Below, piece after piece: positions 5,210 through 9,111 of a DNA stretch of 64,000 nt. Origin of the DNA: Clostridiaceae bacterium (GTDB taxonomy: Bacteria > Bacillota > Clostridia > DSM-8532). The DNA lies in assembly GCA_012521105.1 (NCBI GenBank), contig JAAYNA010000107.1, forward strand, positions 186,001-250,000, in the 5' to 3' direction. Every line of letters begins with the position of its first letter. The first letter of the stretch is position 1. Position numbers and translations under genes: made by a program. The notes beneath the pieces are model-generated. The model searched no databases, had not been told where the DNA came from, and saw only the letters and a list, made by a program, of their open reading frames with translations.

Positions 5210-5352
5210 TATGCATAAAAACTCAATGTTAAGTTTTGCATTTGTTGAACTGCAAAAAAATATATGATAAATTAATTTAGTAAAGTATCCTGTGCTATTT
5301 AATGTAAGCATTTTAGTCTTTTGCAAAATAAAAAAAAAAGCGAGGAATGACA

Positions 5353-8300
5353 ATGTCTGTAAGAAGAATCTACGTTGAGAAAAAACCTGATTTCGATATC
5401 AAAGCTTATAAACTTCGGGAAGAAATAACAGAATATCTTGAAATAAGCGGTATAAAAAATGTCAGAATTCTTGACAGGTATGATATAGAAGGCGTATCAG
5501 ATGAAGACTATGAAAGGGTAAAATATTTTATTTTCTCTGACCCGTCTGTAAACTTCATATATGAAGAAGAATTACCCGTCAATAATGAAGATAAGTTTTT
5601 TGCAGCTGAACTTCTGCCCGGTCAGTATGATCAGCGGGCGGACAGCTGCGCTCAATGCATACAGGTAATAACCGAAGGTGAAAGACCTGCAGTTAGAACT
5701 GCAACGGTAATAGTAATTGAAGGAAAAATAGCAGACCAGGCCTTTGAAAGAATTAAAGAGTATTTTATAAACCCGGTTGAAAGCAGACTGGCAGAACTGA
5801 AAAAACCAAATACGCTTCACGAAGAACACAGAAATCCAGACAGTGTTGAAATCGTAGAAGGATTTATTACAATGGACAATGAAGCCCTGAAAGAGCTATC
5901 ATCAAAACTTGGCTTTGCTATGTCCTTTGAAGACCTTGTCTTTTGCAGGAATTATTTCAGAGACTCAGAAAAAAGAAACCCTACAATTACCGAACTAAGA
6001 CTAATTGACACTTACTGGTCCGATCACTGCAGACATACAACATTTCATACCGAAATTGAAGATGTTTCCTTTGATAAGGGTCCTGTTTCTGAAAAAGTAT
6101 CCGACGTTTATAATTTATATCTTCAAACCCGTAAAAATGTATATAAGGAAAAAGAAAAATCAATTTGTCTGATGGATATAGCAACGCTGGCCATGAAGGA
6201 ACTGAAGCGTGCAGGACTGTTACAGGACCTGGATGAATCCGACGAAATTAACGCGTGCAGTATTGTTGTTGATGTTGATATAGATGGCAGGAAAGAGCCA
6301 TACCTTGTAATGTTCAAAAATGAAACTCATAATCATCCCACCGAAATAGAACCTTTTGGAGGAGCTGCGACATGTCTTGGCGGTGCTATCCGTGACCCAT
6401 TATCGGGAAGAGCATATGTTTATCAGGCCATGAGAATTACCGGATGTGGAGACCCAACAAAGCCCATTGCAAAGACACTGCCGGGAAAATTACCCCAACG
6501 GGTTATAACAAACCAGGCAGCTTTAGGGTATAGTTCATATGGTAACCAGATTGGCGTTGCAACAGGACAGGTTCATGAAATATACCATGAAGGTTATATA
6601 GCAAAAAGAATGGAGTTGGGAGCTGTAATTGCAGCAGCACCGAAAAGAAACGTATTCAGAGAAAAACCCGAAGCCGGTGATGTTATTATTCTAGTTGGTG
6701 GCAGAACAGGCCGGGATGGCTTAGGTGGTGCCACAGGTTCATCGAAAGAACACACCGAAGAATCATTGATCGAGAGTGGTGCTGAAGTTCAAAAAGGAAA
6801 TCCTGCCATAGAAAGAAATATACTGCGTTTATTCAGAAATCCGGAAGCCTCAACGCTTATTAAAAAATGCAATGATTTTGGTGCCGGCGGAGTATCTGTT
6901 GCTATTGGAGAACTTGCCGACGGACTTGAGATTGATTTGGATGCCGTTCCAAAGAAATACCCGGGTCTTGACGGTACCGAAATTGCAATTTCAGAATCCC
7001 AGGAAAGAATGGCCGTGGTGGTTTCCAAAGATGATGCTGAAAAATTCATAGCATTTTCCAGGGAAGAGAACCTGGAAGCATCTGTTGTTGCAAGAGTTAC
7101 CGACAATAATCGATTAATAATGAAATGGCAGGGTGAAACAATAGTCGACATCAGCCGTGATTTTTTAAATACGAACGGTGTGAGGCAGAAAATTAACGTA
7201 GTAGTTAAAGAACCGGAGCCGGTAAATACTAAAAAATACGAAATAAAAACAGACAGGGATTTTCAGGAGGCCTTTAGGCATAACCTTCAACAGCTTAATG
7301 TTTGCAGCCAGAAAGGTCTTGTTGAAATGTTCGACAGCACGGTAGGAGCAGGTACTGTTCAAATGCCTCTTGGAGGTAAAAACCAGTTAACTCCTGCTGA
7401 GGGAATGGCGGCAAAGATACCTGTTCTAAATGGTGAAACCAACACAGGAACGTTAATGTCTTTTGGCTTCAATCCCGATCTTTCCACTAACAGTCCTTTT
7501 CATGGCGCTGTGTATGCTGTAGTTGAATCGGTAGCGAAAATTGTTGCGATGGGAGGGGACCATACAAAAATACGTTTATCACTGCAGGAATACTTTGAAA
7601 AATTAGGTAAGGACCCTGCAAAATGGGGAAAACCTTTCAGTGCATTAATGGGCGCATTTTATGCCCAGATGAATTTGAAAATACCTGCAATTGGCGGAAA
7701 GGACAGCATGTCGGGTACCTTCAACGATTTGAATGTACCGCCTACATTGGTTTCCTTTGCCGTCTGCACAGCTGATGTTACAAATGTATTGTCCCCTGAA
7801 TTTAAGAAGGCAGGAAGTACCGTAGTACTGGTTAAAATTAAAAAAGACTCCATTGGCCTTCCGGATTTTGAGCATTTAAATAAGACATATTCCGGAATTC
7901 ATCAGCTGATTTCCGAAAGCAAGGTTTTATCTGCCTGTTCTGTTAAATATGGGGGTATTGCCGAGGCTGTATCCAAAATGGCTTTTGGAAATGACATTGG
8001 CTTTATATCATCTAAGGATATAAGTTCAATAGACTGGTTTGCCCCTGAATATGGAAATATTATCCTTGAAATATCCGAAAGCTTTAATGTTGGAGACTTG
8101 TTTACAGGCTTGGATTATGAAGTCCTTGGGAAAACAGTAATTGAACCTGTTATTTCTATTGGAAGTTCGGTAATGGATCTAAATGAACTTAAAGCCCTGT
8201 GGCAGGAACCATTGGAAAGCGTTTTCCCAACAAGCATCAAACAGCAAAATGATAGACCCGAAGATTTCATTTTTAACCGAATGAAACCAATACACCACAG

Positions 8301-9111
8301 CGAGGTCTTTGCGAAACCCCGTGTGTTTATACCGGTTTTTCCGGGAACTAATTGCGAATATGACCTTATAAGTGCTTTTGAAAAAGCAGGTGCAGTCACC
8401 GATGTATTTGTTATGAAGAATTTAACTTCTGCTGAAATAAAGGAATCAGTTCAGGTGATGAAGGAGAAGATCCTAAACAGCCAAATAATTATGGTTCCTG
8501 GTGGCTTTAGTGCAAGTGACAGGCTTGAAGGTTCAGGGAAATTTATTGCTGCAGTACTCGGTAAACCCGTGCTTGCTGATGCTATAATGGAGTTTATTAA
8601 GAACCGTGATGGGCTGATGCTTGGCATATCCGGCGGGTTTCATGCACTGCTTAAACTTGGGTTACTGCCTTACGGGGAAATTCGTGAACAGGACGAAAAC
8701 AGTCCCACATTAACATTGAATATAACAGGTAAATACATTTCCCGCCTTGTAAGAACAAAGGTTGTGTCTTCACTGTCGCCATGGCTGTCGAAAACTCTGC
8801 CTGGAGACATTCATACAGTAGCAATTTCCCATTTTGATGGAAGGTTTGTTGCAGGTGAAGATACCTTTAAGAAGTTATTGGAAAACCGCCAGATAGCCAC
8901 TCAATATGTGGATTTCGATGGTAACCCAACCTACGACGTTAAATTTAATCCGAACGGTTCGCTAAATGCAGTGGAAGGCATAACAAGTCCGGATGGCAGA
9001 ATTTTTGGCAAGATGGGGCATAGTGAACGATATTCGAAATACACCTTTAAGAATGTTCCGGGGGAAATGGAACAGAAAATTTTTGAATCTGGGGTAGAAT
9101 ATTTTAAATAA
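5353..9111 (+). CDS. purL: Phosphoribosylformylglycinamidine synthase, large single-chain form, with altered glutaminase nucleophile
   Basis: A 1252-residue FGAM synthase that makes FGAM from FGAR, ATP and glutamine in purine synthesis. The start at 5353 is preferred because gcgagga abuts the alternative ATG at 5347. It has an N-terminal PurS-like region, two AIRS-type synthetase halves (motifs KNETHNHPTEIEPFGGAATC and GGVSVAIGELADG; later GGKDSMSGTFND) and a C-terminal class I glutaminase domain from about 985. The length matches the clostridial/Bacteroidetes single-chain type. Oddity: the nucleophile elbow, normally GICNGFQ, reads GISGGFH, with the Ser codon TCC at 8629-8631 (residue 1093). 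The His/Glu motif KMGHSER is kept. No other pur genes are adjacent. Confidence 0.93.
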   Translation: MSVRRIYVEKKPDFDIKAYKLREEITEYLEISGIKNVRILDRYDIEGVSDEDYERVKYFIFSDPSVNFIYEEELPVNNEDKFFAAELLPGQYDQRADSCAQCIQVITEGERPAVRTATVIVIEGKIADQAFERIKEYFINPVESRLAELKKPNTLHEEHRNPDSVEIVEGFITMDNEALKELSSKLGFAMSFEDLVFCRNYFRDSEKRNPTITELRLIDTYWSDHCRHTTFHTEIEDVSFDKGPVSEKVSDVYNLYLQTRKNVYKEKEKSICLMDIATLAMKELKRAGLLQDLDESDEINACSIVVDVDIDGRKEPYLVMFKNETHNHPTEIEPFGGAATCLGGAIRDPLSGRAYVYQAMRITGCGDPTKPIAKTLPGKLPQRVITNQAALGYSSYGNQIGVATGQVHEIYHEGYIAKRMELGAVIAAAPKRNVFREKPEAGDVIILVGGRTGRDGLGGATGSSKEHTEESLIESGAEVQKGNPAIERNILRLFRNPEASTLIKKCNDFGAGGVSVAIGELADGLEIDLDAVPKKYPGLDGTEIAISESQERMAVVVSKDDAEKFIAFSREENLEASVVARVTDNNRLIMKWQGETIVDISRDFLNTNGVRQKINVVVKEPEPVNTKKYEIKTDRDFQEAFRHNLQQLNVCSQKGLVEMFDSTVGAGTVQMPLGGKNQLTPAEGMAAKIPVLNGETNTGTLMSFGFNPDLSTNSPFHGAVYAVVESVAKIVAMGGDHTKIRLSLQEYFEKLGKDPAKWGKPFSALMGAFYAQMNLKIPAIGGKDSMSGTFNDLNVPPTLVSFAVCTADVTNVLSPEFKKAGSTVVLVKIKKDSIGLPDFEHLNKTYSGIHQLISESKVLSACSVKYGGIAEAVSKMAFGNDIGFISSKDISSIDWFAPEYGNIILEISESFNVGDLFTGLDYEVLGKTVIEPVISIGSSVMDLNELKALWQEPLESVFPTSIKQQNDRPEDFIFNRMKPIHHSEVFAKPRVFIPVFPGTNCEYDLISAFEKAGAVTDVFVMKNLTSAEIKESVQVMKEKILNSQIIMVPGGFSASDRLEGSGKFIAAVLGKPVLADAIMEFIKNRDGLMLGISGGFHALLKLGLLPYGEIREQDENSPTLTLNITGKYISRLVRTKVVSSLSPWLSKTLPGDIHTVAISHFDGRFVAGEDTFKKLLENRQIATQYVDFDGNPTYDVKFNPNGSLNAVEGITSPDGRIFGKMGHSERYSKYTFKNVPGEMEQKIFESGVEYFK

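Follow-up and report, generated by a model that had tools for sequence, protein, structure and literature searches.

Loss of the catalytic cysteine of a clostridial PurL, a likely case of genome-wide ammonia-fed biosynthesis

The window analysed here, a stretch of 64,000 nucleotides from a Clostridiaceae bacterium (contig JAAYNA010000107.1, assembly GCA_012521105.1), encodes a single-chain FGAM synthase, PurL, in which the catalytic Cys of the glutaminase domain is replaced by Ser. Judging from sequence comparisons, we consider it likely, with a probability of about 0.8, that the glutaminase half of this PurL is dead, that its synthase half is fed by ammonia and that it represents one case of a genome-wide ammonia-fed state with relaxed selection on glutaminase sites. 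The source genome, G000, is a draft assembly of 194 contigs, and any absence reported for it may be a gap.

The PurL gene and its glutaminase site

The gene and its parts are located in the window as follows.

5353..9111, + strand: purL, single-chain FGAM synthase of 1252 aa; open frame, matched by TIGR01857 over its full length
5353..8313, + strand: N-terminal, linker and synthase part, conserved; AIRS/AIRS_C and linker domains
8314..9108, + strand: GATase_5 (glutaminase) domain, decayed; PF13507, residues 988-1251
8497..8520, + strand: loop adjoining the oxyanion hole, PGGFSASD then RLEGSGKF; PGGFSAGDEP in relatives
8623..8643, + strand: nucleophile elbow GISGGFH; GICNGFQ in relatives
8629..8631, + strand: Ser1093, codon TCC, replacing the catalytic Cys; from sequence reading and alignment
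9016..9030, + strand: GHSER, catalytic His/Glu motif, intact; from sequence reading

An alternative start at the ATG at 5347, 6 bases upstream of 5353, is possible. The NCBIfam model TIGR01857, whose cut-off is 1057 bits, matched the entire protein with 1838 bits, and it belongs to this family. A sequence-only reading had singled out the elbow and the intact GHSER motif, and both were confirmed, the elbow being encoded by the codons ggc ata tcc ggc ggg ttt cat within one open frame. The alignment with relatives upheld the departure from GICNGFQ, since 96 of the 106 aligned PurLs have Cys at this position. The protein therefore possesses the His and Glu of a functional class I glutamine amidotransferase and lacks the Cys of the elbow. 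The same reading had argued that the change is not one base error. In agreement with it, a separate species of the genus, G024, encodes a PurL that is 80% identical, has no frame breaks and is likewise Cys-less, with GISGGFY at the same site, so that a sequencing error as the source of the Ser is excluded in practice.

Conservation of the two halves of PurL

We defined as conserved the columns with a conservation of 95% or more among Cys-bearing relatives, which amounted to 98 columns in the glutaminase domain and 282 in the synthase part of the alignment of 106 PurLs. In the synthase part, 5 of the 282 columns are changed in the window PurL, as expected of an ammonia-dependent FGAM synthase with a conserved synthase. 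Of the 98 glutaminase columns, 12 are changed, the Cys included: G1055S, E1057R, P1058L, N1071K, C1093S, N1094G, Q1097H, R1127K, H1128Y, G1161F, E1162D and G1179R. These changes affect the loop adjoining the oxyanion hole (PGGFSASDRL in place of PGGFSAGDEP) and Q1097 of the elbow. The initial impression of an otherwise normal-looking protein thus holds for the synthase part and fails for the glutaminase domain.

When the Cys column was left out, 6 to 20 of the other 97 conserved glutaminase columns were broken in the ten Cys-less PurLs, against a median of 1 and a maximum of 5 in the 96 Cys-bearing ones (Mann-Whitney p = 2e-8, related sequences being treated as independent). The terminal-branch ratio of the glutaminase domain to the synthase part had a median of 1.66 in Cys-less and 0.98 in Cys-bearing PurLs (p = 0.0002), and the same contrast was obtained inside the family of the source organism (p = 0.002), sequences being treated as independent in both cases. 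The ratio of the window PurL is 0.97, its own branch not being accelerated in the glutaminase domain; its changes therefore lie mostly on the branch common with its sister.

Cysteine loss in other PurL proteins

Six other Cys-less PurLs were found among 32 genomes of the source organism's family, with the elbows GISGGFY (G024), GIGSGFQ (G025), GISSGFQ (G029), GIGDGFQ (G008), GIGTGFQ (G005) and GIGGGFQ (G031). The PurL of the congener G026, a closed genome, keeps the Cys in an elbow reading GICNGFQ. Outside the family, 3 of 80 relatives are Cys-less (L013, L027 and L055), L027 also exhibiting GHSQR. On a tree built on synthase columns only, the 106 relatives require six or more losses of the Cys: the minimum number of changes is six, and the well-supported branches also force six. 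A DNA-pattern scan of 392 genomes of the class recovered at least seven more genomes with a Cys-less PurL, belonging to five further families and all with altered loops; the pattern took Gly, Ala, Thr and Ser-AGY codons, and this count is a lower bound because Ser-TCN codons fell outside it. The same scan at the level of the order, which comprises 33 genomes only, contributed little.

The class I GATase superfamily includes a Ser peptidase branch (peptidase E), and Ser1093 might by analogy act as the nucleophile of a Ser-His-Glu triad, PurL still hydrolysing glutamine. We regard this as very improbable: the His and Glu are indeed intact and Ser is also encountered in G024, G029 and L027, but sister and convergent PurLs have at this position a Gly, which is incapable of a nucleophile role, the adjoining loop and Q1097 are changed, and the lesions in the genome's other amidotransferases affect different residues.

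Amidotransferases in the rest of the genome

A change limited to PurL is ruled out by GuaA, TrpG and PurF of the same genome. TrpG has lost both Cys and His (elbow GVGLGCQ, FNPES for FHPES). GuaA keeps the Cys and has lost the catalytic His (FQPEV for FHPEV), with VGRTASV for TGGPASV. Both proteins exceed their family score cut-offs despite their dead sites. The sole PurF found starts with MGGVFGVV, a Gly standing for the N-terminal Cys, and misses further glutaminase residues while retaining the PRPP motif DDSIVRGT; with 184 bits against a cut-off of 350 for TIGR01134 and no N-terminal Cys, it falls outside that family. The gene carB is located ~1.3 kb upstream of it. A Cys-less PurF gene close downstream of carB is observed in both G000 and G026, a pairing conserved within the genus.

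In the G000 draft, CarA was not detected anywhere though CarB is present, and HisH was not detected though HisF is present. Also not found in this draft were AsnB (AsnA being present), an intact GlmS (33-residue match only, NagB being present), GOGAT (glutamate dehydrogenase being present) and CTP synthase (PyrG). The his cluster, with names assigned by sequence reading, is apparently ordered hisC-hisB-purC-hisA, the purC-like gene between hisB and hisA (within C117:11000-17000) occupying a frequent hisH position. Elsewhere in the genome (L116, C24), an asparagine-synthetase-like protein adjoins a kinase-like protein, a pair which presumably resembles lasso-peptide maturation proteins.

The glutaminase Cys is kept in NadE, which has an intact nitrilase-type glutaminase motif, in a CobQ-type protein and in GatD, and the genome also encodes a type III glutamine synthetase. 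The cell therefore still produces glutamine and consumes it in some reactions. With GatD and the CobQ-type protein at hand, a free-standing glutaminase could supply ammonia to PurL in trans. This we hold to be quite unlikely, as GatD and CobQ have partners of their own, a single donor would need to serve several unrelated synthases, and a whole-genome GATase_5/PurQ search matched only PurL itself; the latter result disfavours the separate glutaminase proposed by the sequence-only reading as well as an enzyme of the three-subunit PurS-PurL-PurQ type.

Decay of the glutaminase domain could alternatively reflect a decaying purine pathway, with PurL on its way to a pseudogene, yet this appears extremely improbable given the 1252 open codons and the conserved synthase part, the intact frames and motifs of the PurF paralogue, the GuaA synthase half and CarB, and a Cys-less state common to species only 80% identical and with unbroken frames. 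The conserved synthase domain and the presence of the PurF paralogue and GuaA likewise argue against a purine pathway fed differently, as had been suggested. Among the interpretations first offered for this PurL, the use of free ammonia is thus the one that appears well supported by the sequences, the other purine, pyrimidine and tryptophan amidotransferases being predicted as glutaminase-dead or having no detectable glutaminase subunit.

Amidotransferases of the other Cys-less genomes

Parallel losses were observed outside the family. In G032, the genome of L013, CarA has the elbow GIGLGHQ and a Tyr for its His, and PurF belongs to the Cys-less type. In G033, the genome of L027, a deletion in the GuaA glutaminase domain runs through the elbow, and PurF, with MLGIFD in place of CGVFG, has lost its nucleophile. 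In G034, the genome of L055, GuaA has the elbow GIGSGIE and misses the His-Glu motif; PyrG and PurF keep their Cys. Altogether, GuaA is broken in 8 of the 8 Cys-less genomes where it was read (G000, G024, G025, G005, G008, G031, G033 and G034). In the three Cys-bearing controls (G035, G036 and G037), GuaA and TrpG proved intact, as did CarA where it was read (G037) and HisH where it was read (G036). In the Cys-bearing genomes of the family, the fully read GuaA copies are intact, G020 and G021 giving the synthase part only.

Ammonia as the predicted nitrogen donor

An E. coli PurF in which the Cys is replaced can no longer use glutamine but still uses ammonia (PMC3261824), a crenarchaeal PurF' without Cys has been proposed to be ammonia-dependent (PMC3261824), and an NAD synthetase without glutaminase domain uses ammonia (PMC3376133). 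By analogy, the synthase half of PurL would make FGAM from free ammonia and the C-terminal glutaminase domain would persist as a structural remnant. Ammonia would provide the nitrogen of purines, pyrimidines, tryptophan, histidine, asparagine and, probably, amino sugars. The glutaminase sites would thereby have been released from selection. We infer that these enzymes run on ammonia in vivo, and the pattern suggests a habitat rich in ammonia. The ammonia-fed reading is limited by absences that are based on a draft, by the unaccelerated branch of the window PurL (0.97), by the glutaminase Cys that NadE, CobQ and GatD keep next to a glutamine synthetase, and by the missing CTP synthase.

Glutamine-dependent genes and CTP synthase in the family

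In G026 and G024, an island comprises GSIII, AsnA, a split glutamate synthase, a GSI-type glutamine synthetase, a possible ANTAR regulator and PyrG, several of these names being assigned by sequence reading; AsnB adjoins PyrG in the G026 island. The island looks like a nitrogen-limitation set. Outside it, GlmS and a HisH-HisF pair are encoded by both genomes; CarA and a Cys-bearing PurF are further present in G026. Alongside these glutamine-dependent sets, a solo HisF, a second CarB and a Cys-less PurF are encountered in G026/G024. G027 and G030 carry an intact full-length GuaA in the island and elsewhere a second GuaA without glutaminase domain.

Draft or binned genomes can easily miss such islands, and intact glutamine-dependent copies like those of the relatives could exist in the source organism and be missing from its assembly. 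We judge this unlikely. PurL is single-copy even in the closed genome G026, the island was undetected in several genomes of 97-99% completeness, and the decayed PurL site indicates that it is not under selection.

CTP synthase (PF06418) was undetected in 12 of 24 high-quality family genomes and present in 14 of 14 control genomes, and its absence recurs in other genomes with 97-99% completeness. When completeness was 90% or more, PyrG was undetected in 6 of 7 genomes with a Cys-less PurL versus 4 of 15 with a Cys-bearing one, from hand-assembled counts (one-sided Fisher p = 0.015, uncorrected for relatedness). In G029, a 99% complete genome whose PurL and TrpG are Cys-less, no glutamine synthetase of any type was detected.

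The use of ammonia in itself leaves the missing CTP synthase unexplained. CTP without PyrG may come from salvage or from an unrecognised enzyme, or the absence may reflect assembly gaps. Because CTP synthase was undetected in half of the high-quality family genomes, we tentatively propose, as a doubtful extension of the ammonia-fed reading, that the family members without island no longer take amide nitrogen from glutamine in almost the whole of nucleotide, tryptophan, histidine, asparagine and hexosamine synthesis, and that their CTP is produced from ammonia by an unrecognised enzyme with no relationship to PyrG.

Comparison with known systems

Glutamine amidotransferases are textbook channelled enzymes. 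The mitochondrial carbamoyl-phosphate synthetase I is ammonia-dependent and has a glutaminase-like domain without Cys; it is, however, one enzyme, whereas several pathways are affected together here. The Salmonella PurL belongs to a distant, different single-chain clade with a working glutaminase. It has in common with the window PurL the reaction and a related synthase part (PDB 1t3t and others). Members of TIGR01857 share with the window PurL the full-length match and the domain order, but here the Cys is replaced and the glutaminase domain decayed. The crenarchaeal PurF' (PMC3261824) is, like the PurF of G000, a paralogue without N-terminal Cys; it accompanies a normal PurF, whereas the Cys-less PurF is the only one found in G000. 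The ammonia-dependent NAD synthetase (PMC3376133) is also a synthetase using free ammonia and has no glutaminase, a state thought to be ancestral with the domain absent, while in PurL the domain is present and its function appears to have been lost recently and repeatedly.

PurL itself belongs to a known family, and its kind of defect is known as well. The novelty seems to lie in a coordinated, recurrent loss of glutaminase function across pathways, of which a search among open-licence papers found no prior report.

Implications

Annotation based on family scores is misleading: the dead TrpG, GuaA and PurL pass the cut-offs and would be called glutamine-hydrolysing. On the basis of their sequences, PurL, GuaA, PurF and the anthranilate synthase are candidates for the study of natural ammonia-only enzymes. 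The genomes without CTP synthase raise the testable question of the source of their CTP. Overall, this lineage appears to have abandoned the glutamine half of several amidotransferases together, and other lineages appear to have done so independently.
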